Shown piece by piece: positions 12,956 to 62,171 of a stretch of DNA of 64,000 nt. A program made the position numbers and the translations under genes. The notes beneath the pieces are model-generated. The model made no database searches, was not told the origin of the DNA, and was given only the letters and a program-made list of their open reading frames with translations. Each line of letters starts with the position of its first letter. Positions within the stretch are counted from its first letter, which is position 1. Source of the stretch: Isoetes taiwanensis (lineage: Eukaryota; Streptophyta; Lycopodiopsida; Isoetales; Isoetaceae); assembly GCA_021234155.1 (NCBI GenBank), contig JAJEKV010000062.1:2639305-2703304 (forward strand), given 5' to 3'.

Positions 12956-12986
12956 AACAAGGTGACGGTGCAAACGCACTAATGAC
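12956..12986 (+). repeat. Left terminal inverted repeat, 31 bp
   Basis: It starts AACAAGGTGACGGTGCAAAC and matches the reverse complement of 34,879-34,909 base for base. Directly inside it, GCGTTTGCAC (12,988-12,998) is the complement of GTGCAAACGC within the repeat, so the left end alone can form a hairpin. Confidence 0.9.
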
Positions 12987-13314
12987 TTGCGTTTGCACTA
13001 ATAAAAAGCATCTTTCAAAGATTCCCTAAGATACCCTTAAATTCAGCCACTTTTGGGGGGGTCAATTAAAAAAATGACCCTAAATTTACGAATTCGGTAG
13101 CCATTTTAGGGGTCAAAATTACCAAAAAAATGGCGTCTTAATTATTTGACATCCCCATTTTAGGTATAAAAATAATAATTTAATTTAGTTGTTTTAGGTA
13201 CACATTCAGAAAGTCGCAAAATGAAACAACGAGCAAATTCTTGACAATTTTTAAAGACAAAAACCATAAAATGGAGCCGTATACATTTTTTATTGCTCAA
13301 GGAGCAGCACACAT

Positions 13315-13392
13315 GCTATGCGCGCATAGGCAAGGCACAAAAATAGTTTGCTACAAAAGAAACAAAAAATGCAAAATGCTATGCGCGCTTAG
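13315..13392. repeat. CTATGCGCGCATAG palindromes, outer-left pair
   Basis: Two copies, GCTATGCGCGCATAGG and GCTATGCGCGCTTAGC, lie about 60 bases apart next to the 3' end of the transposase frame. They are the leftmost members of a palindrome family found only inside this transposon. Confidence 0.7.
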
Positions 13393-13460
13393 CAGGGATC
13401 CTAAGTTTAAAAGACGAACATTGTACAAACTAGTCATGTACAGCTGTACAAATATTCAAA

Positions 13461-16131
13461 TTACACGAGTAGCTTACGCCCTTTAAGAAGAGCAGGTATT
13501 GGAATGTCGTCGTACTCATCAATGCCTTCAGACTGGTGATCACTCTCCTCATTGACACTCTCCTCAGTATCGCTTGAAGTGGTGGAAGAGCTAACCGCCG
13601 GAACGCTATCCTCGTCTTGTTCAGCTTCGTCCTCGCTATCCTCGCAGAAAGACTTCAACAACGTTGTTATACGAAGTCTGTTATCAACCTTTAAAGTAAA
13701 ATCGTAAGCCAAGACTTGAGTTTCAGCCAGGTCCAGATTGTCTAAGTGATTCTTATTCACTGTTTTTCGTCCTTTCTTAAAAGGAATTATCACAGGATCA
13801 TACCGACCAACAAATTATCCTTAGTGGCATACCAGTGAACTTTTATCACTGAGGGTAGGTTGTCTTTATAAACAATGTCTTTAACCCTTGCAATCCAAAA
13901 AGGACGTTCTTCTTCATCGTCAGTTGAAGGTACCGCCACTAGCATTCCTTTCTGTAGATCTGCAAGTTTCTCTGGAGTTTGACCTTCCTTTTTCTTGAGT
14001 GCACGTCGAGATCCCAGGTACATTGCACGATCAACAGGCTCCTTGTTGATAACAGTATTGATAACAGATTCTTCTGCAATTCCTTGGGCATCCTCAACAG
14101 GAGGAGAGGTTTGGCTACCAGGCCAACAAAAAGGAATCTCCAAAGTGATGCTGTTTAAGGACATGGTCACGTCTTTCATGATTTCAAAGAAATTTTCCCA
14201 CCAGCCCTTTTCTTCCTCAATAAAGTACTTAAAACACGAGCTTATGCTTTTCTCCATGCTAGATAGTGAGACAAGAGGATTCTTGTCTTTGTTCTTCTCA
14301 GTGTTGTCTATGGCACTCTTCGATGGGCTGGCTGAATGGCTCTTCTCATTTCTTTAACCGGGGAACCGTCTCAAGAATTGTAACCCTGCCTCCTGGAAGC
14401 CGGGATCGCGAAGTTACAAAGTACTTTCCTTGAAGAATGGCATTACCTTCTCGAGAAAAAGAACTTCACATGATCTTTGAAAGGTCAAATTATTCAACTT
14501 GTGAATAGCGGGACCTATGTCGGTGTCGTTGGAAAACAAATTCCACGAAAATCACAAGTCTCGCTAAACGCCGACAAGCGGAGTTGGATTGTAGGCTTTC
14601 TCGATCCTGCTTGCACAAAGAGTGGAGACAAAATGCCTTTTTCTGCGCAACCTTACGAGAAAATCGGTGAACATTTGGTCTATTTGATCATGCGTGTGGC
14701 CAACAAGTAAGAAGCCAACCTTGACCTTTCGGAAGATACCTAATTGGACCAGCATTGCACAAGATGAGGCAAATAGAACTTGGTTTTTATTTTCCACCTT
14801 TGTATTGTCTAGGCTATGTATGTAGAGCAGAAGGCAACTTCTCCGTTGCTAGAAGAATCTTGTTGATATTGTGGCCAGTGAGATTAGGATCACTTGTATA
14901 TTTTGGGTACATCAAAAATACTACGCACTTAACCATACGAAAAACTAAAGCACCAACTAGATGCAACTTCAAAAGTCAACTTCATCTAAATCCTTAGGAA
15001 CATTTATAAAATGAGAAAGGGGGCGTCTTCTTTTGATCCATGCCATCTACTACCACAGACATGTATTCAAGAGGCCTCTCAAAGCTTTTTTTTTTGTGCT
15101 TTGCAAGCTTCTTTCTTTCGAGGGCTTGAGCCTCTCTGTGTTCCTGTAATTGTTGAGTTATTTGATCTGCAACCAAAGACATTTGTCAATATCACAGTCA
15201 CTTGCTTTGCTATGCGCGCATAGACACAATGACACGTATTTAGTTTCTCGCTATGTGCGCGCATAGACAAGCGACCGAGAATTTACATAAAGCATGTTAT
15301 GCGGCGCATAGACAAGCGACCGACGAAGCGAAGCATGCTATCTTGGCGCATAGACAACATGCGACGAGAAAATAGGAAGCATGCTATCGCGGCGCGCATA
15401 GACATGCGACCAGAAAAAAGCGAAGCATGCTATCGCGGCGCGACATAGACAAGCGACCGAGAAAATAGGAAGCATGCTATCGCGGCGCATAGGCCGGAGT
15501 CCTTGCTTTATAAAAGCGTGCTATCTTGGCGCATAGACAAAAGACAAATCTAGTTAACACGTATTCACGAGCACATAGATATAGAAACGATACTTTGAAT
15601 CAAAGAGCGTGCTTTTTCTCGGGAAGATTCTTTGCCATGGACCTTTTCTCCTTCAATACTGAACATGTAGAACATCTTGAGAACCGGTGGCTTTTGGGAT
15701 CCTAACAAGATTGAATTCTTGCTTCCACAATCTTAAGAAGTAAGAGTAGGATATGAGCAATGACTTGAAGGCTGGAAGAGATCTCATACATGATGTAGAC
15801 TTCTTTCTTGGTAATCTTTGTCCGTATGATGATGAAACGGGGACTGTTGGGTAGTCGCTCACGGTTGGGTCAAAGAAGCCCACCAACCATGCTTTTGCTT
15901 CAAGCGGTGCACACAACTACTTTCTTTGGGTGGCGGGTGTCGTCAATGCATGGATTTTTGTCTAACGTTTTTGTACCCTTGACATCGGCGACTTCCAATG
16001 GCATGTATTCTTTTGAAAGCCGGTGGCAAACAATTACATTCAACCGTACGTATATGAAAAATTATAAGCCTCGTTCGGGCCTCCGCGTGATATGCTAGGT
16101 AGGATTCCTGGTCACCTTTAGACATTGACAA
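13461..16131 (-). pseudogene. DUF7869-type transposase, broken
   Basis: Read on the minus strand, four conserved blocks occur in the expected order. SYFLRLWKQEFNLVRIPK (about 15.7-15.8 kb) matches the helical block before the zinc-binding part in this family. YMSVVVDGMDQKKT (15.0-15.1 kb) matches the first acidic block, usually written IIDGMDQ.KT. VGFLLVGHTHDQIDQMF (14.7 kb) is the family's hallmark block with the next acidic residues. The C-terminal part has PFWIARVKDI and VIKVHWYA (13.85-13.9 kb), a small beta-rich domain common at the end of these proteins, then an acidic Ser/Glu tail stopping at 13,461. Frame changes separate the blocks, for example near 13.79 kb. The part between the first and third blocks is poorly preserved or intron-split. 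The predicted role is cut-and-paste transposition in the nucleus. Confidence 0.65.
15205..15540. repeat. Palindrome array 1
   Basis: About seven units carry GCTATGCGCGCATAGACA or variants with CGCGGCGC or CTTGGCGC in the centre. They are joined by AGCGACCGAGAAAATAGGA-type spacers of about 45 bases. The array falls within the transposase region between the SYFLRLW and DGMDQ blocks, probably in an intron. Confidence 0.7.
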
Positions 16132-17634
16132 GAAGGATTGTCTTGTTTGCCTTAAGGGCCGAAAAAAGGAAGTTCAATATACACTTCTTTTGACAACAAG
16201 CCCGGGCCTTAGCAGCCTCATGTAAGTTAGTCCCATTAACCGATTTATAAAAGCATGTCCTAAATGCCCTTCTTGTAGGGTCCCTCTTAAATCTCTTTGC
16301 ACTGCTTGTATGGATTTCTCTGAATTCGAAAAGCTTTGCGGGGAACCCGATTTGGGCTGGAGCCTATGATAGGTCTTTCACGGAGTACAAAGCGGGCTCG
16401 TCTTCAATAGTTGTGTGGTTAACCTTCTCCTCTCAACCGGGAACATGGAAACAATGTTCTAGATTTCCTCCTTAACATTTGTAGGTCATCCTCGGCGACC
16501 CTTTGGGTTAACGAGGGGGCCTTTTTCTTGTTGAAGAGGTCTCTCTGAGAATCAATTATGTTTTGCAAAGAAGCAGTTGCAATTCACAGTAAGGTAAGGG
16601 GTTTCAAAATTGAGTGGAGTGCGTGTGTAGGTGAGGCCGAGGAAATGTCTTGTCGGAGAGTGAGGGATGAGGGAGATGGTGTTCTAAACACGGAAGAACA
16701 GCAGTAGAACGTGTGTTGGTGAAGGAGTTTGAAAGGAGGTAGACCAGCATTAACTTGTATTGGCGGCGGAGAAACAAAGCTTCGGATGGACTATCACGTA
16801 AATCTTCGTCTTCAACTTTGCTTTGTCAGGGTGTCTTTGAACCAGCCTCGAGGCAATAATGTAAGATTCGCAGGCGGAGATAGAAAACTTTTCTTGAGTG
16901 GCTGCCGTCCATCTTTGCAAATGGACAAATACCTATACTCATAAACAAATATGCACCACACCTACTATGCATGTACTAAGTAAGGAAGTACACTAACTAA
17001 TTAAAATAGAAATAATAGTAGCTTGCCTATCTTGCGCATAGCCCGGTGTAAGATGAACTCTCGTTGCCCATGCGGCGCATAGACAAGATATCAAAATTAC
17101 TTGTGAGAGATAAGCACTGTTACCTACTTGAGCACGGGGAAGGCGTGTTAATAAATTCTATAGCTCAAGCGAAGGAAGACAAGATAAGATCTGGCCTGTA
17201 AAGGAAGAGCGGGGAAAGACAGAAGAGACTTTGTGTGGGCTTGACCTCCATAAAGGGCTGCATGAAATGAAACGCTACACTCTTCATGTATAATCTCATA
17301 GAATATCCAAGTACTAACATAGACAATAAATAGGAAAAGAAGGGCACATTTTCTGCACAGGGCCAAAGCTCTGAGCTCGACCTCCTTCACACTCACCCAC
17401 TTTTTTTACCTATCGAATTCTATAAGAAGCTTGTATGAACCACACGCCGCAAATGGTAGGTGGAAGGTCGTCAAGATCTTAATTTTACTATAATTAGCTC
17501 ACTTTTAAATGTTTTTGTGCATTATTTGCTTCATTTGGCTGCCTTCAAAGCGATTAAAAATGTCAATTTCTTAAGTATTTCTGGCCTTCTTCCTCTGTTC
17601 TAGGTATGTTTTGTTTGGTTTGAGTCGTTTTCTT
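16132..17634. other. Transposon interior, no clear gene
   Basis: The upstream part of the transposase gene should lie here on the minus strand, but I recognise no block. Two more degenerate palindromes occur at about 17,033-17,080. A minus-strand open stretch at 17,148-17,396 is hydrophobic and has no motif. Confidence 0.35.
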
Positions 17635-18070
17635 AAGCTTTGCCTATGCGCGCATAGACACAAAGCTTTTTTCACAAAGCTTTTTTCATAAGCTTTGTGT
17701 CTATGCGCTTTTTTCATAAGCTTTGCCTATGCGCGCATAGACACAAAGCTTTTTTCATAAGCTTTGCCTATGCGCGCATAGACACGCTTTTTTCTTAAGC
17801 TTTGCCTATGCGGCGCATAGACACAAAAGCTTTTCATAAGCTTGCCTATCTTGGCGCATAGTCCACAAAAGCTTTTCATAAGCTTTGCCTATCTTGGCGC
17901 ATAGACACAAAAAGCTTTCTTAAGCTTTGCTTATGCGGCGCGCCAGACACAAAGCTTTTTTCTTAAGCTTTGCCTATGCGCGTATAGACACAAAGCTTTT
18001 TTCATATGTAATATGCCTGTCACTATTGAATTGGTTGAATTGGTTGGCTATGCGCGCATAGGCAAATGAT
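17635..18070. repeat. Palindrome array 2, central satellite
   Basis: About nine units of 36-46 bases repeat AAGCTTTGCCTATGCGCG, then CATAGACACAAAGCTTTT and a TTCATAAGC spacer. Each unit is itself an inverted repeat: AAGCTTTG on one arm and CAAAGCTT on the other, around CTATGCGCGCATAG. The array lies between the two divergently read genes of the transposon, where a shared control region or transposase-binding region would be expected (inference). Confidence 0.8.
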
Positions 18071-18099
18071 GTCTTAATTCTTTACTGTTCTTTATACTT

Positions 18100-19219
18100 C
18101 AGTAAGAAGAGAAACCTTGGACGGGGTAGCCAGGATTATGCAGGTGTATCCTCCCAAAAGGTCGCCAAAAAGAAGAGAACGCCGAAGGATCCAAGTTAGG
18201 ATGTTCTGGCTCCAAGTCAGCAGCATTTTTAGGAGGCCGATGATGGCTCCTATTTTTGTAAGGATCAGCAGTGGTTGCTTGTCGAGGGTGTGCGGTGAAC
18301 CCGACAAGCTGCGCATTTTTATATTTATACATTTGTTCACGAGACCGGCAAAGCAAACCACGGGGATCTAGAAAGCTTGAAGATGTGGCGGGGCTTGTAG
18401 ATGTTGAAGCTGTTTGGTATGTACTACATCAAGTGCCCGACCACCACCACCAAGGGCGATCAACATATATATTAAATGGATAGTTCATTTTTGAGCTGAG
18501 TTTGTCTTCTCGGAAGATATGCAAGGCTACATTCGGGCAAGAATGAAGAGTAAAATTGTAAGTGTTATTTTCTGCACGAAAGACTTTACCAACATGTTTG
18601 GTCTATGACATCATAGGTTTTGTTTTGCGGGGATCTTCTTTCTATACTAAAAGATCTTCTTTTGACTAAGGATCCTCTGTTAAGTTCTAAGCGCCTCCTA
18701 TTAAGCTTTGAAGGATGCCATGCCATCTCTGCCAAGCTAATCATCCCCGAATCTCAAGCTGTTGAGTTGGCAGCAAAGTGGATGAAGATGAACCTTGAAT
18801 CCGAATCGAGGAGGAAGAGTTTGAGGTTGAAGTGGTGGAGAGGCCCGAGAAAAAAAAAGCCAAAAGAAATTATTACAAAGGCGGGCCTGGTGGCCCGACA
18901 TTGCTCCGGCAACTAGCAAGGCATCAAGAAAAGGCACTAAGGTAACTTTGCCTCCAGCACCGGGTACAAGGATTGCCAGTAAGGAAAAAGACATGGCTTC
19001 TAGGAAGCTCGAAGAAATTGAGCTGAGATGTCGTGTGCCTGGGATCATGCACCTGCAGGTTGATTGTGTTAAGTTGTGCCCAAAGGATGAGTCCGCGAGA
19101 GACCTTTGCAAGTAAGAAAAATTTACTCTGGTCATTTTATGCGCTCTTAAAGAGCGATATAAAGGGACGGACCAAATCGCGGACTCTGACCACACATTTG
19201 CATTGTTGACCCTTCCTAG
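18100..19219 (+). pseudogene. N-terminal part of the ParB-methyltransferase gene, broken
   Basis: Several frames in a row read as protein-like sequence, including a basic stretch (KVAKKKRTPKD, about 18.15 kb), EDMQGYIRARMKSKI before a GT donor near 18.56 kb, and KLEEIELRCRVPG with VDCVKLCPKDESARDLC near 19.0-19.1 kb. The pieces are split by introns and by stops. I recognise no named domain in this part. The assignment to the same gene rests on strand and position just before the ParB-like block. Confidence 0.4.
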
Positions 19220-19688
19220 TGCATGGAAAGGGATTCTTTTGTAAAGGAAGAGGATGAAAGATACATGTATTTTGTTTTGGGTGGCACTCACAGCTTTAAG
19301 GCGAGGAGGCAGCTTTACAAAGAAACTAAAGAACACTGCTTCTCTCAAATATTTGCATTTGTTTACGTGGGTGTCAACACTCACGAAAATAAGTTGCTTG
19401 CTATGAGCCACAATGTGGACAATGGATATCGGATGAGCATGAGCTTCATTGATAAAATTAAATTTATGCACAAGGAATACGAGCTTTTTAGGTTGGAGCA
19501 TAAGGGTGACAAAGATATAAAGGATGATCAAAACCTATATCTGGCTCTCAAAGAGCGATTGTGCTACAAAGTCTTTGCTTAACCCAACTCGGTGATGCGG
19601 AGCCTCTCTTGTGAAGTCGACAACTACTTCCAACTAGCTTTTAGGACTTTCTTCTCCAAGTTCTTTGACCATGCCAAGATAGCCATTC
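19220..19688 (+). pseudogene. ParB-like domain segment of the cargo gene
   Basis: A likely acceptor (CCCTTCCTAG, ending 19,219) opens this exon. The protein reads YFVLGGTHSFKARRQLYKE, then FAFVYVGVNTHENKLLAMS and HNVDNGYRMSMSFIDKIKFM. This is the ParB pattern: a GG.HS..AR box in place of the G.HR..A box, a strand with a hydrophobic core, then an ALA.N....M....-type helix. ParB-like domains bind or cut DNA or bind CTP; in phages and mobile bacterial elements they are often fused to N6/N4 methyltransferases. The frame runs on past one in-frame stop to MRSLSCEVDNYFQLAFR and ends at a GT near 19,689. The match is by eye. Confidence 0.55.
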
Positions 19689-20204: not shown

Positions 20205-20505
20205 TGTGCCTATCGCGGCGCGCACTACAAGAAGTCCGTTCTTGTGGTGCTATCGCGTCGTAGGCTAACACCGAACTTTTGTTTCTTTCTTCTTCTTCAT
20301 GAAGTTGTTTTCTTGTTGTTGTGTGGCTATCGCGGCATAGCATTCTTCTGAAGTCCATTCTTGTGGTGCTATCTTGGCGCGCATAGGCTAACACTTGGAA
20401 CCTTTGTTTTCTTCTTACCAAGGCTGTTTTCTTGTTGTATGTCTATGCCCGCGCATAGCACCACAAGAAGTCTGTTACTATGTTGCTATCTTGGCGCGCA
20501 TAGGA
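20205..20505. repeat. Palindrome array 3
   Basis: About five degenerate units combine GCTATC(G/T)(C/T)GGCGC-type palindromes with CACAAGAAGTCCGTTCTTGTGG-like inverted repeats (that is, ACAAGAA on one arm, TTCTTGT on the other). The array lies in what is probably an intron of the methyltransferase gene. One more copy is at 21,018-21,036 and another at 34,664-34,681. Confidence 0.65.
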
Positions 20506-20769: not shown

Positions 20770-21432
20770 TATTAGTTATGTATTCTTTGATATTCCTTAT
20801 GGGTTCAAGCTACCTGATAGTCGTGGAGATGATTCTCCATTTACTTATGCTGAATTTGATTCTTTCTTGAGGCGTTTAGCCAAAATAAATCTTGCACCGC
20901 TTTGGAGGATAGTAGTTTTCATTTAAATGTCATCAGGCGGGTATGGTACAAAGCTGCAATGAGAGAAACCTTTGCAAAGGCGGTTCGAGCCAACCATTTG
21001 GTAAGTTATTTCTTTTTGCTATCGCGCATAGCACACAATAACTCATTGGTTCGCGGTTCGCGGAGTTGAAGACGCGAATGTAAGAGGAAATGGCGGTGGT
21101 GCAAGGCTTGTAAATGTTTGGGAACAGATGCACATTGGTTACCACAGCATTGGTGGGCAGAGAAGCATTTTGCATTATAATACTGCTGGCATGGACTTGC
21201 GTAATGCGTTTCAATTCCCATCAGTCATTCAGAAATTAACAGACCCAGTACACCAGGGTTGTATAGTCAATCCTTATCAGAAGCCTCAACAACTCATTAA
21301 TACCCTTTTAGAGATGTTTTCACAGCCAGGTGACGGGGTCGTCGATGCCTTCTCAGGTCAGGGACCACCTTGGCTTGTGCTTTAAAAAAGGGTCGCAACT
21401 GCCTCGCAATTGATTTTGATAAGGATTCTGTG
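20770..21432 (+). pseudogene. N6/N4-type DNA methyltransferase, catalytic part
   Basis: The frame reads YVFFDIPYGFKLPDSRGDD, with DIPYG in place of the catalytic (D/N)PPY motif IV, then FTYAEFDSFLRRLAK. After a short gap it reads EQMHIGYHSIGGQRSILHYN, NPYQKPQQLINTLLEMF and SQPGDGVVDAFSGQG, then LACALKKGRNCLAIDFDKDS. The KP..L...L box, the VDAFSGQG SAM-binding motif I and the following AIDFD acidic strand are those of the N6_N4_Mtase family (PF01555). Motif IV before motif I is the order of that family. The frame shifts by one base within the FSGQG region, and a stop lies after motif IV, so this copy cannot make the enzyme. The gene is cut at 21,432 by the CACTA element and resumes at 34,283. 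Confidence 0.8.
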
Positions 21433-21589
21433 CATACAAGAAAAAGGGGGTATTAGAGTCAGTTTTAGCGTCAGAAGGATATTTCTGATGTTTTTTGAGG
21501 TGAAAACAATGTTCTGTAGTTATTAGCAGCACTTATAGTTAGATATTTCTCTGCTGCTAATTCTGACGCTATATCTGACTTTATGGATG

Positions 21590-22560
21590 ATGCTATATCA
21601 TTTTAACCAATCTAGCAACAGCGGTGGCGTTATAGCTGAGGTAGAAGCTGATGCCGCGATGAGTCAAAGGTGTTAACATTAGGTTCAAATATACATGTCA
21701 TCTGACTCTAATTTTGACGTTATGTCTGACTCTAAAGATGATGCTATATCATTTTAACCAATCAAATGCTATAACGGCGTTATAAGCGACGTAATGGTGA
21801 TGCACTATGAGTCAAAGGTGTTGGCATTAGGTTCAAGCATACATGTCATCGACTCTAGTTACGACCATACAATTGGCGCTATGCTTGACTTTATGTTGAC
21901 CTCTACTTCCGGCGCTATGTGCGACACTATCATTAGTTCCAATTGACTCTACTAGTGACTCTAGTTCTTGACCTTACTATTGACGATATGCTTGACTTTA
22001 TGTTGACCTCTACTTCGGCGCTATGTCCGACTCTAAAGACGATGCTATATCATTTTAACCAATCCTTTGCTATAACCGGCGTTATAACCGGCGTAACAAG
22101 CGATGCACTATAAGTCAAAGGTATTGGCATTAGGTTCAAGCATACCGTCATCGACTCTAGTTACGACCATACAATTGACGCTATGCTTGCCTTTATGTTG
22201 ACCTCTACTTCTGACGCTATGTCTGACACTATCATTAGTTCCAATTCTGACTCTACCTGTGACTCTAGTTCTGACCTTACAATTGACGCTATGTTTGACT
22301 TTATGTTGACCTCTACTTCTGAAGCTATGTCTGACACTATCATTAGTTTCAATTCTAACTCTATCAGTGACTCTATATTATATGCTACTATTGACTCTAT
22401 TTCTAACCCTATGTCTGATGCTACTGTTGACTCATTCAGTAGTACGAACACTACTACTCATGCTAACATGTGATCTAACTTTTGTTTGTACACTATGTCT
22501 AGAGTTGATGCTATCATTGACTCTATGTCTAACTTTATACCATTGACTCATATCGTATGC
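21590..22560. repeat. CACTA left subterminal repeat array
   Basis: Short units such as TCTGACGCTATGTCTGAC and GACTCTAGTTCTGACC repeat many times. A larger unit containing GATGCTATATCATTTTAACC and AGTCAAAGGTGTTGGCATTA recurs three times (starts near 21,590, 21,740 and 22,040). Such arrays are binding sites for the element's own proteins in known CACTA elements. The open frames seen on both strands here come from the repeat and are not genes. Confidence 0.75.
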
Positions 22561-23159
22561 ACTCTACTTATAGTCATGCACTTTACTATTTGTTTTAAGC
22601 CTTTTGAATAATCCCATATGCAAAGATACCAAAAAGAGACACTTGCCATCTATTCAAATAACCATTTGTCTATACACTCTTAATATAACTACTCTTAATA
22701 TAACTACTCTTTCTCTACATTTTTCATTTTCTCAAAATTCCTCATTTCATGCATACCTATGTGGCTAGAACAAGATTGCCAAGGCTACGAATATACAATA
22801 AAGTGTGCATTATCATACTTGTCTCATATGATTTAAAAGTTCACCAATACATAATATTAGCAATTGTATCAAGAGGATCTCAACACAATATTCCTCAATG
22901 ACAATGACATATACTTAAAAATAAAATCATTGAACTAGTCTTTAGTAATGTCATATAGCAAATCCTGCTCAACTTCTTCTATTTCATCATCATCCAATTG
23001 CAAAGGGAGTCGCGATACATGTCTCTCTCTGTCCCATTTTCTGTGTCGTTCCTCATCAAAGTAGTCATCAAGTATACAATGTTCTGGGCTATGCATTGGA
23101 GACCTTACCTGAAGGCCTTGATGGTCCTCTAATTGTGAATCATGCTCGTGGTCAATGGT

Positions 23160-23561
23160 TTATTCAACTGGGTCAATCAACTCCAACTCACGAGGAAGTG
23201 GAATATCAGATGATGATCCTTGGGTGTCACAGTTAGAATCATTGAGGATAGGCATGGCAATAACTCTTCGAGAAGTTGGTTGTGAATGAACCACTATCCG
23301 CCATTTCTTATCCCTAGGATTATCATGGAAAAATACTTGCTTCACCTGACTAGAAAATATAAAAGGTTCGTCTAGATCTCTTAAGACATGTGAAGTGTCT
23401 ACCTCATAGAATCCAGAAGGGTGTACTGGAATGGTTTGATTTCTTCCTTGGGTTTGTGTTTTGAACCATTTGGCCTTTAGCACGTTCACATGGAATGAAC
23501 GAAAGTTCAAGTCCATGATTTTGGTAATAACTCCAATATATATAATCAACATTGCCATCAA
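23160..23561 (-). pseudogene. CACTA transposase, DUF4216 part
   Basis: The minus strand reads VNVLKAKWFKT, then GFYEVDTSHVLRDLDEPFIF and SSQVKQVFFHDNPRDKKWRI with VV. The KWF, DPFI-like and A/S-Q-KQVF(Y/F) landmarks are those of DUF4216, which follows the TNP2 domain in plant CACTA transposases. The frame ends in an acidic stretch and a stop at 23,160. A retroposon tail (23,593-23,735) separates it from the TNP2 part. Confidence 0.75.
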
Positions 23562-23592
23562 TAGGATTTATGTCCCCCGCACTACATTCACT

Positions 23593-23735
23593 CCTTTAAA
23601 GAATGAGAATGAGAATGAGAATGATTTTTTATCGTCCACTGAGGCCAATCGGCCTATGGGACCCACAAGGAGCGCAGCAAACTTATTACTGTCCGGGTTA
23701 AAAAACCCCCGCCCCGAAGGAAGCCATTATTCCAG
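23593..23735 (-). repeat. LINE-family 3' tail, copy 2, inside the CACTA
   Basis: It matches 5781-5905 in landmarks (CCAATCGGCCTATGGGACCC, GCAGCAAA, TTACTGTCCGGGTTAAAAAA). On the minus strand it ends in GATAAAAAATC and four ATTCTC units. The different tail repeat at the same end (TTCC in copy 1) supports independent retroposition of a LINE or SINE end. Confidence 0.6.
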
Positions 23736-23978
23736 AGTCAAAAGTGACACGACCTTTATCAACTTCCTCAATACGAAAGTGTTGTCAATATGCCCACATT
23801 GAAGAATGATATCTTATCTACAAGTGAGAATAAGAAACATTAGTGATAATTTGGTAACAAAATACAAATTGGAAAACATTGCTCGTAGTTTACAACAACA
23901 TATATATTAGATTGATATCTCTAAAATATAAATAGGACTGAAAATTTTTTAATAGGAACATTACCTTCCTCTCACAAC

Positions 23979-24702
23979 CTAAAGCAATGTTGAAGTCATC
24001 AATGGATATCTTCTCGCCTTTCTCCTTTGCTTTTCGTCGATATCTTTTTTGCCATCTTTTTCGATGGGCCATAACTCAGACATTATTTGTTGTTCCTTGA
24101 GATCATACCTTGCATTTAGTGTCTCGCATTCCCCTGTCAAGTGCCTCCACAAAGAATGTGCAACATTCTTGAAAATGTGCATTGGATCCAACAAATGTAC
24201 AATCTTTAGGTCACACCAATATTCTAGTCGATGGAATATTGACAACCTCTTCATTCCCAATGGAGGAGAGTTGGAGGTGTTATTGTTCCATTTTTCCAAC
24301 CAATCTTGAGGAGTTAGTACTCTTGATTGGTTTGTTATGTCATTATCACGAAGAGAATGACCATGTGGCAAATACTTTTGATGCCCCTTGTAAACCATTT
24401 TTGATAGATGTTTTGATCTGTACGAGGGAACTTGATCACCACATGATGGACAACCACTAGCACCTTTAGTTTGCAAACCTATATGACCCATAAATAAGTA
24501 TTAATACATCATTAAACCAAAGAGAAACACTATAATTGATCAAAGTACCTGAGGCTACATTAAACCCAGGATAATCATGGATCGTGAAACATAAGATCCC
24601 ATGAAATGTAAAAACATGGGGTGCCTTCACAATGTCGTATATTTTTATGCCTTTCCACAATGTCTCTAGCTCCTCAACAAGAGGTTCCATGTAAACATCC
24701 AT
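23979..24702 (-). pseudogene. CACTA transposase, TNP2 (Transposase_21) part
   Basis: From the upstream side the minus strand reads VYMEPLVEELETLWKGIKIY, then HGILCFTIHDYPGFNVASG. These match the VYL.PLVEEL..LW.GV..YD and .L.WTI.D.P.....SG blocks of TNP2. Farther on come CPSCGDQV, KMVYKGHQKYLPHGHSLR and LEYWCDLKIVHLLDPMHIFKN with V, matching the Y.GHR..LP..H..R and W..L..RHNLD.MHIEKNV blocks. At least one intron or frame change lies around 24.47-24.49 kb. The catalytic function would be CACTA transposition. Confidence 0.85.
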
Positions 24703-24829
24703 ATTCTTTACTTGATACTTTCCTATTGATAACGAGTGAAAAATATATGAGAAAAATGCATAAAAACATAATGCACTCTAGAAATATATTATATCTCAAA
24801 CATTTAAATACCTGGTACAATTAGTGTTG

Positions 24830-26900
24830 AAGCAGTTTTCTTCATAACTTATGGCTCGGGTGTCAGATTCGGGTGTTCTTAGTGCATTGGAAAGCTAGAG
24901 ATGTGAGCTTTCAATTGGCGTATAATTCATATAGTTTTGTTGTGTCTATCTGGGCTGGATTTGGAGTTTACAGATTTCGGCTACCATGGCAAACCCGAGT
25001 ATTAATGATCACTATGCTAAACAAAAAACCACTAGTATACGCATGAGACTATCTCATAAACTACGATGAGAGAAAAAACCACTATAGCATTGACAACCAC
25101 CATTGATAACGACGTCATGAACCACTACTAGTCTTCATACACCACGATCACTGAACACGTTAAGAACCATCATTGATAACTATGTCATGAACCACTATTA
25201 GCATTGACAAACCACTATGGCATGTGATTTTCTTTTGTCAAATAAATTCATGAATAAAAAATGACATATACCATGGTTTTTAGACGATTTGATACCAGTT
25301 AAACATGATAGTTCATTTCTGGGGGCCTTGTGTTAATACAAATGTAAACCTGCCCTAACTCACGTCTTATATACTTCCACCTATATCTACATGACATTCA
25401 CAACATTATACTAGCCAAAGCATTCATGTGTTGATTATTAGGAGCAGAAGAGTTACGTAGAAGGGTTGCAATCTATTAGCCTAATGTGGAGCATCTTTGT
25501 ATATTGCTCCTTTCGTGCTATGGAAAGGGTGCGAAGTTCAATGCTATGTGATAGGCCTATACGATGGCATTTAGATATTATTGACATTTTACGAGGGCTA
25601 TATGATGACATTATTGATTCATGTTACTAAAGGTTTTCACGATTGACAAGTACATTGCGTTGCAAGGTTATGGCAATTTGTGTACTGGAGTTTGTGTGTT
25701 TAGACATGAACTGCAAGTTCGTTAGCTCTTAGGATTAGTACAAAGCATCAAAGCTGCAATCAATATCTATAAACATCTAATAGGCAAAAGGCAGCTATGA
25801 CAAATTCTGAATTATAGCCTCTGATGAGATCAAGGATTCCAAATGAGCTCATAGGCAAAATGACAAGTTTTTAGAATCTTTTATATTAAACATCTAAGGT
25901 GATGCACTGGCACTGGCCAGAATAAAATACTTACCACGAACATAGATATTTGAGTTGAGGAACCAATGGCCGCACCTAAAGAGATGTCCTGTACACGAGC
26001 CATTCTAATGTATTAATCAGCCTATTCAAAATGCTGAACTTTAACAGACAAATGGGCAATGTTTAGAAGCTTGTCCTTAAGCGCAAACATTATCGCACTG
26101 GCATGTTCTGTGGCATTACCAACTGTAGGAAGAATTATAACAGTGAGAAAGACTAAAGGTATATTCTAGGCCCCTGATGCGCCATAGAAGGGGATAAAAG
26201 AGATTAAGACTCAAAAAGGAATCTCAAAATATTCCATAGAAATAGTAACATGTTCAAATTAAGTACCTGAATTGCATTATCGACGACATATTGTAGAAGC
26301 ACAGAGATAAATATTGTCAATACTTCAAATTATGCTATATGGCGCCCCAACAACTAAGAATTTGTTCTTCCTCATCCCCAAACTCTATGTTGTCCTATGA
26401 CATACAAGATCATTGACTTAGGTTATATGAAGTCAAACAATACAAACTATTCAATCTACTACTACACAATTAATTGTACATGCAGCATTAACATAAAGTT
26501 GTAGCCACACTCTCACCTCTTCTATATCAACTGAAAGAAGAGATACAACGCCCTCGGCCGCAAGATGTAGCACATACAACTCAATAATAAATAATAAGGT
26601 AAATAAAAGGGGGCACTCCAAGGCGGACACATCCACATCGCTCAGTATGGTGTAAATATGCAAAAAAAAAAAATCATATGGTGTAAATATGCAACCTGGA
26701 GAAGGCTCATCCAATTGTTAAGGCAAATTGTTTTTTGAAAGGTAAGAAATAAGAGGGAGAGGGGGGCAATGGAAAATGAATGTCTCAAATATACAGGCCT
26801 AGTTATGGGGTAAACATGGCAAGTCAAAAAAAAGATGTGCAAAGATGATTGCCCAGATGTTGTGAAAGCTAGCATAGCAAAAAGCGGGATGGGAGAAAAA
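24830..26900. other. CACTA interior, no recognised gene
   Basis: The N-terminal exons of the transposase would be expected here on the minus strand, but I see no TNP2 block. 25,015-25,215 holds imperfect repeats of CATTGATAACGACGTCATGA and GAACCACTACTAG. The rest is AT-rich, with open frames below 105 codons that lack motifs. Confidence 0.35.
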
Positions 26901-26904
26901 AGAC

Positions 26905-29900
26905 ATGGGTGCAAAGAAAAAAAAGGCAAAACAAAAGAACGTGAAAGGAAAATCAAAGAAAGGGGAAGGATGGCTGATAACGGGGAGGTTATCAGCCCTT
27001 AAAAAAATGGCAAAAGGAAGCGAGATATGGAGGATTTTTCAGCGGCAAAGGCAGCAGAGATGGCGAAACGTAATGGTAGAAGGAAGACTAGCAAGGGCAG
27101 AGGATGGCGATGGCAGAATGGATGCCTCCATAGGGTTTTGTTCATCTGTAAAAAATAATGGCTAGGGTTTAGGTATGTGCTGTAAGCCTTCGTTTGGTCG
27201 ATTCTTGCTTCTAATCTGTTCTAACCTGCATTTTTTTCTTAGGTAAAAGGCATTTCGGCGCTGGCTACATTGATTTCGGCCTCAAGCAAGTGAGTGGCGG
27301 TTCTCCAATTCAATGTTCTATCATTTCAACCTCTGTAGAGCAAATGGGCAGCATTTTTGTTTGGTAGATGCTCTGTCATTCCATTGTAGTTGGATATTAG
27401 CAGGTCTGAAGAGCAAATGCCAGAATCAGGGTAGGTAACTATTCAACTTCAAGAAACAAAGAATCAACTACAGAAGAACGGAGATAATTGTCTGGAAATC
27501 TTATTGAAACTATCAGAGAATACACGGATATAGATATCCCTGACATGTAGGAGCTGCTAAGTTTAGCAACCGTCAGTTTTAGCTAACATCTGTCCATTTT
27601 AGAACCGTTGGGTTATTTTGTCTCAAATATTATAATTACCAACACTCCTCCTCAAAATAAACCCTTCACTCCTGTTTCAATCAGTAGTTCAACTAAGAAA
27701 TGTTCACCTAAACTTCAATGAAAGTTAAACTACAAAACAGCAAAAGAAATTCTGTTAATATGAAGATCTGCATCCCTCCAACAGTCTTCAAAACTGTGCA
27801 GCATCCCTTAAACTCTGAATGAATGCTTCACAAGTGAACCATTCATGAATCATGTCTTCAGTTCTGCTACAATTTACCAGCATCTGAAGGATATTCAAAC
27901 CTGCACCATTCCAAGTTCTGCAACGCACTTAAGAAATTTCTTCTTCCCTAAAGCTTTAGTAAAAACATCCGCAGTCATTTTGTCAGTTCTTAAATGCTGA
28001 ATGACAACATGTCCTTCATTGACCTTTTCTTGTGTAAAATGGAATTGCACCTCAATGTGCTTTGCTTTCGAGAAGTTTGTTGGATTCTTTGCTAAAGATA
28101 CTGCAGCAGAATTATCATTATGTATAACAGTAGCCTTAGCTTGAGGCAGTAGCCTTAGCTTGAGGCACGTAAAGTTCTCTAAGCAATCTCCTGAGCCAAA
28201 TACATTCCTTAGTTGCGCTGCATAAAGCCATATACTCAGACTCACATGTAGACACAGCAGTCGCCTTTTGTTTTCTGCTGCACCAATCTACTGCTCCCCC
28301 TTGCAGAAGGAAACAAAAGCCAGTTCTAGACTTTCTAGCTACTGAATCCCCTGCATAATCGGCATCTGCAAAGGCTTGAAGAACAAGGGGCGGAGAAAAT
28401 TTATGCTGATAGCAGATACCAAAGGTTGCATGGGCATGAAGATATCGAAGCAATCTTTTTAAAGCCAACCAATGTTCGGGTGACTGTCAAGAAATTGGCT
28501 GAGGGTAATAGTGGCTTGAGCTATATCAGGACGTGTGCACACCATCAAATGCATCAAGGAGCCCACAATGCTACGGAAAGAAAGTCCACCAAAAGCATTT
28601 GCTGCAGGTGGAAGAGAAATAGCAGGCATATGAAAAATAGCCGGGGTAGCAACTCCCTTGCTACCATGCATATTACAGGCTTGCAAAAGGTTATAGACAA
28701 ATTTGGATTGATGAATAAGAATATTGTGGGACAGCGGATCTCTACTAACTTGAATACCAAGAAAGTAATGCAAATCGCCCAAATCTGTCATGTGAAAGCG
28801 GGCAGCTAAAGCAACTTTGGTATCTTTCAACTCGGAATTGTCACTTGCCAGAATCAGGTCATCTACGTACAAGACAATAATAATCACATAAGCATTGTGC
28901 CTCTTGCAGTAGATGTTCCAGTCTGCATGACTCCTTGCAAATCCTTGTTGCGTGAAAAATTTGTGAATGGTATGATACCACTGCCGTGGGGATTGCTTGA
29001 GCCCATAGATTGCCTTGTGCAGCTTATAGACTTTACCCTTCTTGGCCATTACCTTCTTGGCCAGTTTGTACAAAACCCGGAGCCTGTCTAAGATAGACTT
29101 CTTCTTGCAACGTACCATGTAAAATGCCGTCTTGACGTCCATTTGTTGCAAATCATAATTCTGAGCTGCCACCACTGCTAACACTGCTCGTACAGAACTC
29201 AGCCTAGCAACTGGCGCAAAAGTTTCAGTGTAATCCATGCCGGGAACCTGAGAACATCCCATGGCAACCAATCGTGCTTTGTATTTGCTAACAGCATTAT
29301 GCTCATTATATTTAATTTTGTAAATCCATTTAGAATTTACCACTTTTCTTCCTTTGGGCAGATCTGTAAGAGTCCATGTTTCATTGTCCACTAAGGACTG
29401 AAATTCCTCACTCATGGCTTTCAGCCATTCTTCCTTCTTAGTACTTTGCATGGTATGGGAAAAGGTTTTGGGCTCATCAGGCAGAATGGTGCTATGAAAG
29501 GCAATATATCCAGATGTCTTCTTACCCTGTGAAGTGAGGTAGTCTTGCATACGACTAGTAAGGTGCCTAGTTCTGCTGGACCTCCTTAGTACAGCTTCTT
29601 CCGGATTCTTAAGATCAGAATTGGACACCAAATCATCTAGCTCACCATCACTATCCTCTAGTTCTGAGGGAAATTCAACTTCATACTCAGAAGATTCTCA
29701 TGTATGAACATCTACAGATTCGCCTTCTTCATCATCAGAATTAGTATCACTATCAGAAGAATTACTCAAAGCACAACATTTACTGCCCGTCCCTTTTCCA
29801 AAATCAAAATTTTGTTCATCAAAACGAACACTTCTTCTAATGATCACCTTTTTATTTGAAGGAAGGAACAACCGATAACCCTTGATTTCATCTGAATAGC

Positions 29901-32900
29901 CCACGAACATACAAGGTACCGATTTGTTTGACAACTTGTCTCGCTTCAGATGAGCATATGCATTACAGCCAAAAATTTTCATATGAACCATATCAGGTTT
30001 TCTGCCCGTCCACATTTCTTCTGGGACAACCTTTGGAGATGCTTTTGTCGGTATTCTATTGAGCAAATAGACTGCTGTATGGACTGCCTCCCCCCAAAAA
30101 GAGGGGTCAATATCATTTCCAAAAAGCATTGCGCGTGCACACTCTAGAACAGTCCGATCCTTTCGTTCAACAATCCCATTTTGTTGATGCTCGTGAGACA
30201 CCGATTTCTCATGCTTAATGCCAAATTCTATGCAAAGTCTTTCAAATTTCTTATTGACAAACTCACCTCCCTGATCTGTCCTAATTTGCTTGATTGTGCA
30301 TCCAGACTGATTTTCCACAAGTCTTTTCCAAATGACAAAACAACCAAACACCTCTGATTTTCTCTTTAAGAAATAGACCCACAATTTTCTACTAAAATCG
30401 TCTATTACTAAGAGAAAATACCTGGCACCACCTACAGATGGAATCTTGGCTTTACCCCAGACATCCATATGGACCAGCTCCAAGCATTTTTCTGCTCTAT
30501 GTGCTTTCCCTTTTGGAAATTTCCTCCTGTGCATTTTTCCCAGCATGCAACCTTCGCACAACTTTGATGGTTTTCCAATCTGTGGTAGACCATCCACTAA
30601 CTTTTGTTTTGCCATTTCTTTTAAGAGCGGAAAATTAGGATGTCCCAGTCTCTCGTGCCACAATTGGGTGCTGTCCAAAATAGAAGTAGTCAGGGCTGTT
30701 CGTTGAGACCAGCTCAACTGATACAAGTCTCCATCTCTATTGCCCATAGCTAACACATTTCTTCTTCTGTCTTTGATGAGGCACTTTCCATACCCGAATT
30801 GCACCACTAAACTTGCATCATCCAGTTTAGAAATAGACAAAAGATTTGCCTCCAAGTCAGAAACATGAAGAGCTTTCTTCAAACGAACGTCTCCTGTAGG
30901 CATTTGTAGCTTAACCGTTCCAATTCCAACAATATCAAGATTTCCTTTGCCTACTTTTACCTTGCTGTTCTTAACACCTTGATATTCCACAAAGAGTTCT
31001 CGTTTGGATGTCATATGATCTGAGGCTCCAGAATCTAGGTACCAAATTCCATATGGAGTTTGTGCCACAAAATATCCTACTGCTTGTATCACGAAAAGAC
31101 TGTCAAAGCAGGACTGCAAATATTCTACAACTGCCTTTATCATTTTAAAAATCCCATGTTTAAAAGATAGAAAGGCATCTGGTAAGATAATGAAAAGAAT
31201 CCCATATCATGCTAATTTGCTTGCACTGGTTCTTTCAACCATGCAAACAAAAGCCTTTCCAGAAACAAAGGAATCACTGCTCTCAGATGATTCTTGTTCT
31301 GAGTCAGATGTGGAAGCATAAGACTTGACCTTTTTTGCTTTATGTGCTGCTGCTTCCTTCTTTCTTCCATTATCTTTTCTCTTGTCATGTCCTCTTTTCT
31401 TCCTCTTATCTGGTTCTGCACAATCTTTAGCCAAATGTCCAGTTTGACCACAATTGTAGCATTTTCTAGTTTCTTCTCTTCCACTCACCAAGGCTTGAAA
31501 GTCTCTAGAGGAACTCTTCTTTATGCCCTTTTGATTTTTCTCTTCCAAAAGCAGCTGCTGACATGCCCATTCCAGGTCTACCTTCTCAACAGATCCAATA
31601 ATGTTCTTCACATTATTGTACGAACTAGGCAGTCCCAACAAGAAAGCTGCTACAACCAAATCATCATCTAATGCTTTGTTCATACCCTGCAGTTGCTTTG
31701 CTGCTTGCCGGATAGTCCCAATGTACTCTTCCATACTCATTTCTTCTCTCAACTTTGTATTAAAAACAATTGCATACAAATTTGCTTGAGTAGAAAAATG
31801 TTTCCTCATGTAGGACTTCTGAAGTTCATCCCATGCTGCTTTGGCTGAGGATGCTAATCTGAGGCATCAAGGTATCATCTAGGTAACGAAGGATCCTACT
31901 CTTTGCCGTCCAGTCTCTCTGCATCCATTTAGCCAAGGCCTGCTTCTCAACTTCATCAGCCTTAACTTCCTCAACCTCAGAACTCCCTGTCTGAGTCTCT
32001 GTAGAAGCTATCAATCTCACATGCACCTCAGGCTTTGGTTCACCATTGACAAATCTCACATGCACCTCAGGCTTTGTTTCATCACCATTGACAATTCCCC
32101 ACAGGCCTTTCTCACACAGCTTTGCCTCACTCTAATAAACCAGTAATAGGCGTTCCCATGGTTTAAATTCTCAATCTTCATCTTGATTTCCCTGCAGTAC
32201 GTCCTCAAGGTCGATTCTGCTCTGATACCATATTCAACTTCAAGAAACAAAGAATCAACTACAGAAGAACGGAGATAATTGTCTGGAAATCTTATTGAAA
32301 CTATCAGAGAATACACGGATATAGATATCCCTGACATGTAGGAGCTGCTAAGTTTAGCAACCGTCAGTTTTAGCTAACATCTGTCCATTTTAGAACCATT
32401 GGATTATTTTGTCTCAAATATTATAATTACCAACAGTAACTTCTAGAATTTCTTTCTCATATTCATTGCTCGGGTTTAGAAATAGTTCTGGAATAGACTG
32501 CTCATGGTTATTGGCAGTTCAGCATATAATATCTTAAAATCGTGCCCTGTGGTATTTTTCATAGAGGATAATAGCATCTGTGGTTGGAAGACTAGAAATA
32601 GTGATTTATTAAAACGTTTTATGGATAGGACATGATTTTGAAATGGTCTTAATATGCACTGTGAGAAGTTCTATGCTCCTGAACGGTCAAGATAACTTGG
32701 TAGATCTGTGATGCTATTTACATAATAAGTGATGTTGGATGCTTGTATGATTATTACTTCAAAAGGGATGTGACTAGGAATATATGCAATTGGATTAGTG
32801 TAGGTTTCAAAGGCTTGGCAGATATTCGTAGATGGCACCTTAAGGATTGCCTTTAATAGACTACATAGATGCTGCTACTTAATCTTTAAGTTGGTCTCTA

Positions 32901-33391
32901 GATAGGATGCTGCTGAGATAACTTGGCTGTTGTTGGTTGCTTTTATAGCTAGCAATAAATCTAATCTCTTTTCGATGTAACATGCAGCCTCTTGCAGATG
33001 CTATGCAGCGCAGTAGGCAGAACTTATTGTTGAACGCTGACTTGAAAATGAACCCTTTAGAGTTAGTTTTTGAGGAGGTAAAAATTATTGCCTACTGCCT
33101 AGCAAGTTTGCATTATTTTTTCATGTTGAAATTATTAATTGAACATGCCTGCAGGTATCCTCAATTAAAAAACCATGCACTCGAGATCTCCTTTGTGGGA
33201 TTTGTGTGAACAAGCACCCTGGGAAGTCATCACGCTCTACTTACTAGAAGAGCTACTGCTGCTGTATGCAATGTTTAAGATGGCAATGATGACGGAGGAG
33301 ATGAAGAGATTGAAGACTTTGATGATGCCATGGACAACTATGATGACACTACAACTGAATCCTCTAACGATGAAGTAGAGAAAGAAACCTG
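26905..33391 (+). CDS. Possible second CACTA gene, split by the copia
   Basis: Plus-strand pieces flank the copia element. A Lys-rich start lies at 26,905-27,165 (MGAKKKKAKQKNVKGKSKK). Exon-like pieces follow at 32,984-33,079 (MQPLADAMQRSRQNLLLNAD) and 33,155-33,391. The last contains a Cys-rich stretch (LLCGICVNKHPGKSSR) and, in another frame, a strongly acidic end (EEIEDFDDAMDNYDD and TTTESSNDEVEKET, stop at 33,389-33,391). The copia would lie in an intron of this unit. CACTA elements often have a second, DNA-binding gene of TNPA type, but I cannot show that this is one; a captured host gene fragment is as likely. Confidence 0.3.
27440..27644 (-). repeat. copia 3' LTR
   Basis: This 205-base repeat reads TGTTGG...GAATA on the minus strand. 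It is preceded on the plus strand by the target duplication GTAAC (27,435-27,439) and adjoined by the purine tract at 27,645-27,653. Confidence 0.92.
27895..31143 (-). pseudogene. copia pol region: protease, integrase, RT, RNase H
   Basis: In order along the minus strand: protease active site LDSGASDH (about 31.03 kb); the GAG-pre-integrase domain with LWHERLGHPN (about 30.66 kb); the integrase core with HMDVWG and IRTDQGGEF; reverse transcriptase with WIYKIKYNE, KARLVAMGC and YVDDLILASD (about 28.86 kb); and RNase H with ADADYAGD and CESEYMALC (about 28.24 kb). All belong to one Ty1/copia polyprotein. It is broken in a few places. Confidence 0.92.
31207..32065 (-). pseudogene. copia gag region
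   Basis: This region encodes the capsid-like part of a Ty1/copia polyprotein (UBN2-type), with the landmark EEYIGTIRQAAKQLQGMN, and then one CCHC zinc knuckle and a Lys/Ser-rich linker. It belongs to the fossil element above; the reading frame is not whole. Confidence 0.85.
32231..32435 (-). repeat. copia 5' LTR
   Basis: This is the partner LTR, followed by GTAAC (32,436-32,440). The Met-tRNA primer site lies directly inside it at 32,219-32,230. Confidence 0.92.
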
Positions 33392-33689
33392 ATTACTAAT
33401 TGCATTGAATTATTCTGTTTTAATCTAACAACAAACTATGAAGAATATTTAAGTGTCAATTGTGTTTTAATTTTGCTGGATCATGTGTGATACTTGCATG
33501 TCAGCGAAAATCAATAAACTAACTTGCTGCAATACAAATATCAGAAGTATTTTAAGTATTCTATGTATTTTTATTTGATATATGTATTTTATGTATTTTT
33601 TAAAAAAATGTAGAATATTTTAATACTTAGAATATGTATTGTATGTGTATGGTATGCTATGTATGTTACAACCATGGCTATAACTAACT

Positions 33690-34262
33690 CAAAGACTGTC
33701 ATCTATCCTGACATTAGAATCGACTCTAATTGTGACATATTGACTGACTCTAAATCTAATGCTACAGATACTCTATTCTGACGCTACTTTCTGACCCTCA
33801 AACTGATGTTAAGGCTGCCTAAATTCTGACTCTAATTGTGATGATAGAGTTGACTCTAGTTCTAACATTATGAATGACTCTAATTGTGACTCTATACTGA
33901 CTCTAATTGTGATGGTCGAGCTGACTCTAATTCTAACACCATGGGTGACTCTAATGCTGGTGGCAGAGATGTCTCTAATTCTAACTCTATGGTTGACTCT
34001 AATTCTAACACTATGGTTGACTCTACTGTTAACTCTAATGCTGATGATAAAGTTGTCTCTAATTCTAACACTATGATTGACTCTAATCGTGACTCTATGT
34101 CTGATGAAAAACTGATGCTAAATTCTGACGCTAATTCTGACGTTTAAATGACAGAGCTTAGAGTCAGTTGTAGAGACAGCCATAGCATCAGTTTAAGGAC
34201 TTTTTTCTATTTTTTTCTGTCTAAGTTTATAACTAGGGTCTGACTCTAAAACTAACTCTAAT
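33690..34262. repeat. CACTA right subterminal repeat array
   Basis: Units such as TTGACTCTAATTCTAACAC and ACTATGGTTGACTCTA repeat throughout. They share the GACTCTA core with the left array, and the two arrays are read in the same direction. Two overlapping 68-codon open frames here are by-products of the 12-24-base periodicity. Confidence 0.75.
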
Positions 34263-34282
34263 ACCCCCTTCCTCTTGTAGTG

Positions 34283-34591
34283 GTGGTATATATAAAATCC
34301 AGAATAAGTTCTCTGCACAGCCTGCCAGATGAAAAGCAGGAGGTTGGCCTTAAGGATAAGGATGGTAATCCCGCAGCTTCAAGCTCAGAGCCTTTGCCGC
34401 CACTCACCGGGAACACCAACGATCCGGCCGAGTTCGTCGAGCTTGTTCCTGTGGAAGAGATTCAAAAGGTTGTGGAAGAGAAGGATGCCTCAGACACTGA
34501 GGAAGTTAATCCTGATAGCTCTACTAAGGTTCTCCCTCCTCCAGATTCTGATGATGAACTTCCTCACAAGGAACCTCCTCTTGATATATAA
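34283..34591 (+). pseudogene. C-terminal end of the methyltransferase beyond the CACTA insertion
   Basis: If the CACTA element and one copy of the GTG duplication are removed, the frame passes from AIDFDKDSV into VYIKSRISSLHSLPDEKQ. That is the expected place for the helix after the acidic strand of motif II. A Pro/Glu/Asp-rich tail follows (PPDSDDELPHKEPPLDI) and stops at 34,589-34,591. The tail is open over 100 codons, so it has stayed largely undamaged. It has no domain I recognise. The seamless frame across the insertion is the main proof that the CACTA landed in this coding exon. Confidence 0.75.
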
Positions 34592-34878
34592 TGTGTGCTA
34601 AAAAAATGAAATTTTTTTATGTGCCTATATTATTGTATTACATTATTGAAATATAACTTTGTTGTCTATGCACGCATAGACTTCCTTCCTTCCCTTTGTA
34701 TTTTGTTTCGTAAGAAAGTGCATTTTCTTAGTGTGTCTTAACACAAAATCTGTCGCCCGCTTTTAAAATGGCCATATTTGGAATGCAACTTTTTTTTTTT
34801 TATAGTTGTTTTTTTTTTAATGGTCAAAACTGCCGAATTTACGTTTTTTGGAAAAAGGAATCTGCAATTGCACCAAAG
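34592..34878. other. Outer transposon, 3' flank of the cargo gene
   Basis: This noncoding AT-rich stretch carries one more palindrome (GTCTATGCACGCATAGAC, 34,664-34,681). It shows that the palindrome family belongs to the outer element on both sides of the CACTA. T-runs lie at about 34,789 and 34,809. Confidence 0.6.
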
Positions 34879-34909
34879 GTCATTAGTGCGTTTGCACCGT
34901 CACCTTGTT
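34879..34909 (-). repeat. Right terminal inverted repeat, 31 bp
   Basis: This is the exact reverse complement of 12,956-12,986 and ends in CACCTTGTT. It is followed by ACAT. The hairpin partner seen inside the left end is not present here. Confidence 0.9.
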
Positions 34910-62170: not shown

Positions 62171-62171
62171 C

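Follow-up and report, generated by a model that had tools for sequence, protein, structure and literature searches.

The 64,000-nucleotide stretch analysed here (positions 2,639,305 to 2,703,304 of contig JAJEKV010000062.1, deposited as Isoetes taiwanensis; hereafter the window) carries a genuine but dead transposon of a type already known from algae, which is notable for the nested history recorded in it and for a palindrome private to its body. With a probability of about 0.7, this outer element, as we call it, is a cut-and-paste DNA transposon, now decayed, that belongs to the kind carrying an accessory ParB-methyltransferase gene, and is most like the Sola-1 element of Ectocarpus. Its limits are set by a pair of terminal inverted repeats (TIRs) and a target-site duplication (TSD):

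12952..12955, no strand, left TSD, ACAT (direct comparison)
12956..12986, plus strand, left 31-bp TIR of the outer element (repeat search)
34879..34909, minus strand, right 31-bp TIR of the outer element (repeat search)
34910..34913, no strand, right TSD, ACAT (direct comparison)

The two arms match each other in inverted orientation at 31 of 31 positions, their ends read AACAAGG and the duplicated target site measures 4 bp; the perfect 31-base repeats with ACAT at both outer flanks, claimed in an initial annotation of this DNA, are exact. Identical 31-mers placed like the TIRs have a chance expectation of about 4e-10, counted over all position pairs in 64 kb at equal base frequencies. No further copy of the 31-bp ends was found in the window when the element was compared with it by blastn (E 1e-4), and the TIR had 0 matches among viral contigs. 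The spacing of 21.9 kb, also given in the initial annotation, holds as a distance (21,892 nt between the arms) but not as the length of one element: the interval 21433-34285, which includes a duplicated GTG, is a nested insertion, so that the outer element's own DNA consists of 12956-21432 and 34286-34909 and its body measures 9,101 bp. We therefore rejected 21.9 kb as the size of the outer element, the rest of the span being filled by a CACTA element and a Copia retrotransposon. The retention of CpG was likewise rejected as a sign of function, the observed/expected ratio being 0.77 in the left part of the element and 0.76 in the left flank. Outside both ends of the element we noticed a 35-bp direct repeat (12244-12278 and 35092-35126, 97% identity) and a second pair of 30 bp near 10970 and 35233 (90%); a single older repeat may have left pieces in both flanks.

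The nested insertions are laid out as follows:

21433..34282, no strand, nested CACTA element (ends; TSD GTG at 21430-21432 and 34283-34285)
23292..24720, minus strand, CACTA transposase remnants, Transposase_21 and DUF4216 (Pfam)
27440..32435, minus strand, Copia retrotransposon inside the CACTA element (long terminal repeats, TSD GTAAC, Pfam)

The ends of the CACTA element were first seen as an inverted pair of 41 nt (21435-21475 and 34239-34279) with 90% identity. The right end reads CACTACAAG and the left end, one base short, reads CATACAAG, with GTG at both sides; together with the Pfam matches to tnp2 and DUF4216, a combination typical of plants, the CACTA end and the 3-bp TSD identify the insert as CACTA/En-Spm. 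The Copia retrotransposon has long terminal repeats of 205 bp that are 99% identical, a TSD GTAAC, and Pfam matches to gag, integrase and reverse transcriptase. From the nesting, the order of insertion was outer element, CACTA, Copia. All 24 copies of the octamer TGACTCTA in the window (both strands) lie in the CACTA element, grouped in two blocks near its ends, and we accordingly rejected this repeat as part of the outer element. Repeat blocks near the ends of a CACTA element are what is expected for a TnpA-type binding site, and the TGACTCTA array is likely a protein-binding array.

In the 9,101-bp body, the first of two genes is transposase-like:

13464..16363, minus strand, recognisable coding segments of the broken DUF7869 transposase-like gene, in several pieces (limits drawn by eye from frame displays)
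14483..14978, minus strand, DUF7869 (PF25273) domain in two reading frames (Pfam 73.4, 20.2 and 77.0 bits)

On the piece 14567-14848 Pfam reports DUF7869 at 77.0 bits, as the initial annotation had anticipated. Over a longer read-through the domain is split between two frames, one scoring 73.4 bits and the other only 20.2 bits against a cut-off of 26. These two matches adjoin on the profile (positions 54-167 and 7-61) and their DNA overlaps at 14823-14848, so that the frame change within DUF7869 leaves no room for an intron. The blocks DGMDQ (15047-15033) and GHTHDQIDQMF (14701-14669), from which a minus-strand transposase had been proposed, both lie on the minus strand, in different reading frames; the strand, the blocks and the DUF7869 match of that proposal stand, but the gene is broken and does not form one open frame. 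The DUF7869 protein presumably served as the transposase, cutting at the TIRs and so producing the 4-bp duplication. The word DUF7869 had no occurrence in the literature searched. By eye, the C-terminal part of the gene (13793-14353) resembles a small barrel of the chromatin-reader type (PFWIARV..HWYATKDN), with no Pfam match.

The second gene runs in the opposite direction and is interrupted by the CACTA element:

19220..19579, plus strand, ParB-like piece, GGTHS block followed by HN..N block (NCBIfam TIGR03764, below cut-off; no Pfam match)
20789..20806, plus strand, DIPYGF, candidate methyltransferase motif IV (frame display; no Pfam or NCBIfam match)
21182..21364, plus strand, N6_N4_Mtase (PF01555) match ending at an FSGQG box (Pfam, 28.6 bits)
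21373..21432, plus strand, methyltransferase, apparently continued in a different frame up to the CACTA insertion (by eye, frame display)
34286..34591, plus strand, C-terminal part of the methyltransferase beyond the CACTA element, including the stop codon (in phase with 21373-21432)

The match to PF01555 exceeds its cut-off (28.6 against 26.7 bits) while covering only positions 135-193 of the 221 in the profile. Searches with the methyltransferase piece gave RsrI (E 0.22) and CcrM (E 0.48) in the PDB and, at E up to 1, 109 of 50,697 phage records, all below 60% identity; the 20 phage records listed had E values of 0.02-0.5 and were mostly annotated as DNA methyltransferases. Upstream of this match, the DIPYGF block, which we take to be motif IV, is followed by an in-frame stop near 20926, unless an intron begins before the stop. 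Downstream, the apparent continuation starts, by eye, no more than 9 nt after the FSGQG box at 21364, in another frame. The coding pieces on the two sides of the CACTA element (21373-21432 and 34286-34588) are in phase, an agreement with a one-in-three chance on its own; from this the insertion most likely lies within the methyltransferase gene, the C-terminus of which would be encoded at the right end of the transposon. Pattern searches for relatives returned 3, 43 and 16 matches in viral contigs and 157 in genome contigs, none of which was confirmed, and Rfam gave 0 matches at gathering thresholds.

That the methyltransferase gene belongs to the outer element is supported by its last coding piece, which comes to within 630 bp of the right end and keeps phase across the CACTA element. 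The gene could instead have been picked up by chance by one copy, without being a trait of the family, and the single copy visible would suit such a capture. Nevertheless, the gene takes up the greater part of the body's right half as well as approaching the right end so closely, and the same pairing in the same orientation has been published for Ectocarpus (PMC12477816, accessible text); we regard a chance capture as highly improbable. The original description, in which a TIR transposon holds DUF7869 and methyltransferase genes of opposite orientation, is borne out by the TIRs, the TSD and the profile matches.

The ParB part of this gene is less secure than its methyltransferase part: of the plus-strand ParB and N6/N4-methyltransferase gene claimed in the initial annotation, the methyltransferase passed its Pfam cut-off, but the ParB-like piece had no Pfam match and was recovered by NCBIfam only. 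There, its one matching family was the ParB family TIGR03764, with E 0.0031 and 17.2 bits (cut-off 143.75) over 84 residues (11-94). The piece might thus not be ParB at all, the protein being a methyltransferase only; consistent with this, 19220-19579 had no match in Pfam, PDB, phages or plasmids, its one match in PHROGs was to a family of unknown function (E 0.044), and its fold model was poor. We nevertheless consider this quite improbable, as (i) in a control NCBIfam scan of ten other open reading frames from the window, most of them running antisense to genes or to nested elements, the best E value was 0.037 (followed by 0.046 and 0.23, with 7 of the 10 having no match up to E 1), and (ii) GG.H and HN..N blocks, which we presume to be ParB-type motifs, occur in order. 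On its sequence, 19220-19579 is likely a ParB domain, and the order and strand of the pieces suggest that it forms one gene with the methyltransferase.

Both genes are broken in the present copy, with frame changes in each. Generally poor assembly is disfavoured as the cause of these lesions because NOG1, a neighbouring gene, has an open frame of 662 residues. With frame changes in both genes, the present copy would be movable only by proteins made elsewhere, and for the same reason it cannot mark itself or escape silencing.

The body of the outer element also contains a dispersed palindrome:

13316..13329, no strand, subterminal palindrome CTATGCGCGCATAG at 360 bp from the left end; near copy at 13379
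15210..15536, no strand, palindrome cluster A (non-coding gap within the DUF7869 gene; 7 of 23 sites)
17027..18061, no strand, palindromes between the two divergent genes, 9 of 23 sites
20327..20503, no strand, palindrome cluster C (non-coding gap within the methyltransferase gene; 4 of 23 sites)
21019..21031, no strand, palindrome-related site (short non-coding gap within the methyltransferase gene)
34666..34679, no strand, subterminal palindrome copy at 230 bp from the right end

The octamer GCGCATAG, counted on both strands, occurs 30 times in the 9,101-bp body, twice in 42,038 bp of flanks, and not at all in 7,844 bp of CACTA or 4,996 bp of Copia. In 300 dinucleotide-shuffled versions of the body its count averaged 0.13 and never exceeded 2. 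When k-mers were ranked by their counts in the element relative to the remainder of the window, CTATGCGCGC came first among 10-mers and CTATGCGC second among 8-mers; the ranking preceded the separation of the nested elements, so that its "element" included parts of CACTA, and the top 8-mer, TAGAGTCA, is the CACTA repeat. The pattern CTAT-N(2-14)-ATAG holding CG has 23 sites at seven loci of the body and 1 in the rest of the window. None of the 23 touches the segments taken as coding, which were drawn by eye from frame displays and make up 47% of the body. The core appears in a perfect form, CTATGCGCGCATAG, and in imperfect forms, CTATCTTGGCGCATAG and CTATCGCGGCGCGCATAG.

Spacing and spacers were analysed on 22 sites, a set that misses 17974, 20327 and 34666 of the 23 and adds 15297 and 17068. 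Within clusters, 13 of 15 neighbouring pairs lie 38-47 bp apart, the other two being separated by 74 and 83 bp. Spacer identity within clusters was 0.63 in A, 0.80 in B and 0.40 in C, the last from a single pair (two spacer units), while between clusters it was near the shuffled values (A-B 0.47 versus 0.44, A-C 0.42 versus 0.40, B-C 0.49 versus 0.41). Core identity between clusters was 0.82-0.85, a figure that is partly built in, as the selection pattern fixes the ends of the sites. The idea that the outer arms of each site match one another beyond what chance copies do was rejected: over 25 sites the score was 4.72 within a site and 4.90 between copies of the same cluster (4.00 for other clusters, 3.44 for shuffled sequence), and only cluster B scored high.

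These figures bear on whether the palindromes have a protein partner at all. They could be intronic or intergenic minisatellites, or RNA hairpins, spread by local duplication: the units of a cluster are tandem and alike, as the spacers of B and A show; the outer arms of a site resemble each other no more than they resemble those of other copies in the cluster; and cluster B (445 nt) folds as RNA far more stably than 100 shuffles (z -10.9), as any palindrome array would. Nevertheless, the core is common to seven separate loci while the spacers differ between clusters, a copy stands in both subterminal regions, coding segments are free of sites, and the nested elements hold none. A palindrome without a partner is, in our view, rather unlikely, and we infer that the CTATGCGCGCATAG family is probably a binding site of an element protein, either the transposase or the ParB-methyltransferase. 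Such a role is made plausible by the nested CACTA element, which carries a private repeat array of its own.

If a protein binds the palindromes, it is possible, though we hold it tentatively, that they serve the transposase only, in the manner of the subterminal arrays of CACTA elements, and that the ParB-methyltransferase has another target or none. The private TGACTCTA repeat in blocks near the ends of the nested CACTA and the palindrome copies 360 bp and 230 bp from the ends of the outer element point in this direction. Unlike the CACTA end blocks, however, 21 of the 23 palindrome sites are internal, which we judge unusual for purely terminal binding. Alternatively, the ParB-methyltransferase might bind the palindromes as ParB binds clusters of parS, and mark, or by marking de-repress, only its own family. 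The layout behind this idea comprises seven non-coding loci, a spacing of about 42 bp in clusters, and copies near both ends and between the genes; we deem such self-recognition unlikely.

The preferred reading, a decayed transposon of the ParB-methyltransferase-carrying kind, would then have the following history. A 9,101-bp body with two divergently transcribed genes, one for the DUF7869 protein and one for a ParB-like/N6_N4 methyltransferase, was inserted with a 4-bp duplication of ACAT, presumably after the DUF7869 protein had cut at the TIRs. The palindromes in the non-coding parts of the body may have been bound by the transposase or by the ParB-methyltransferase; the latter would have bound and methylated DNA, conceivably that of the element itself. 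Later, as the nesting shows, the CACTA element inserted, most likely into the methyltransferase gene, and Copia then entered the CACTA. Self-marking or escape from silencing by the element, which the initial annotation had suggested, can at best be inferred.

As for its classification, the outer element shows two features of Sola transposons, a 4-bp TSD (ACAT) and terminal inverted repeats (31/31). The TSD of Sola1 is 4 bp. For Sola2, TSDs of 4 bp are given in PMC3627910, and Sola1 has been reported in Physcomitrella (PMC9033089), both according to the accessible text. The accessible text of PMC12477816 describes Sola1-1_Ec32 of Ectocarpus as having a gene for a ParB-like and N4C/N6A methyltransferase protein opposite its transposase. 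The outer element is alike in being a large DNA transposon with a methyltransferase gene, likely with a ParB-like part, on the strand opposite the presumed transposase, and its accessory protein has a domain of the N6_N4 type (PF01555, 28.6 bits) encoded inside the TIRs. The Ectocarpus family measures 21.5 kb against a body of 9.1 kb here, the two having been compared by description and not by sequence. The giant families of Ectocarpus mostly hold nested insertions and often have a pseudogenised transposase, as does the outer element, and Copia and EnSpm also appear in the Ectocarpus table of that paper. Similar proteins are said to occur in green and red algal transposons, for which the same text cites Iyer 2011 and Petroll 2025; the giant elements of red algae are termed EnSpm there. 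In phages and prophages, fusions of ParB-CTPase with N6_N4_Mtase have been described (PMC12704722, accessible text); these unite the same two domain classes in one protein, but belong to prokaryotic viruses rather than to TIR transposons.

Other assignments were rejected for the outer element. CACTA/En-Spm does not agree with ends reading AACAAGG and a 4-bp TSD; the nested CACTA does have a private short repeat near each end, but its CACTA ends and 3-bp TSD make it the insert and not the outer element. KDZ elements have a KDZ transposase and an 8-bp TSD, whereas the TSD here is 4 bp and Pfam scans of the coding regions listed no KDZ family.

Several points weigh against our reading of the outer element. 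A single copy of it has been seen, and its Sola membership is drawn by analogy with published descriptions rather than by sequence comparison with Sola transposases. Pfam gives DUF7869 no function. ParB comes from one match far below the family cut-off, and the best match that this NCBIfam scan gave for the DUF7869 piece was an unrelated family with E 0.03. Single-sequence AlphaFold models of two pieces were poor and mostly helical, with a predicted local distance difference test (pLDDT) of 43.7 for the ParB-like piece and 53.9 for the other. As for the palindrome, local tandem duplication accounts for part of its copy number, the sites not being independent, and nothing links it to one particular protein.

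The pairing of the genes and the idea of self-marking are already published and hence not new: algal transposons with a DNA methyltransferase of their own have been described with a proposed self-marking role, the authors of PMC12477816 themselves proposing self-modification for the Ectocarpus ParB-methyltransferase, and the accessible text names no target sequence and has 0 occurrences of "palindromic". The dispersed palindrome is new anatomy, which bears on the self-marking idea without proving it; a palindrome array private to the element would supply concrete DNA on which self-marking could be tested. Interrupted genes, Copia, CACTA and NOG1 mark the host DNA as eukaryotic; tnp2 together with DUF4216 makes a plant likely, although Ectocarpus has Copia and EnSpm as well. 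Should the host truly be a land plant, the pairing would be carried beyond the algae. Among the literature matches listed, there was no land-plant element of such a kind and no repeated palindrome in one, which is weak evidence of absence, as subscription journals lie mostly outside the coverage; PMC10294476, PMC6431247, PMC4455052 and PMC9477723 contributed nothing decisive.

Elsewhere in the window, remnants of a non-LTR retrotransposon occupy 51800-53700, where the endonuclease is matched in two frames and the reverse transcriptase falls just short of its cut-off; a further endonuclease match, likewise below the cut-off, falls between 6 and 11 kb. At 44801-49634 the minus strand carries genes of host type, namely the open NOG1 GTPase and a fragment of a triose-phosphate transporter. 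A weak match to an Ulp1-type protease (Peptidase_C48), a type common in plant transposons, was found below the cut-off at 60902-63700.

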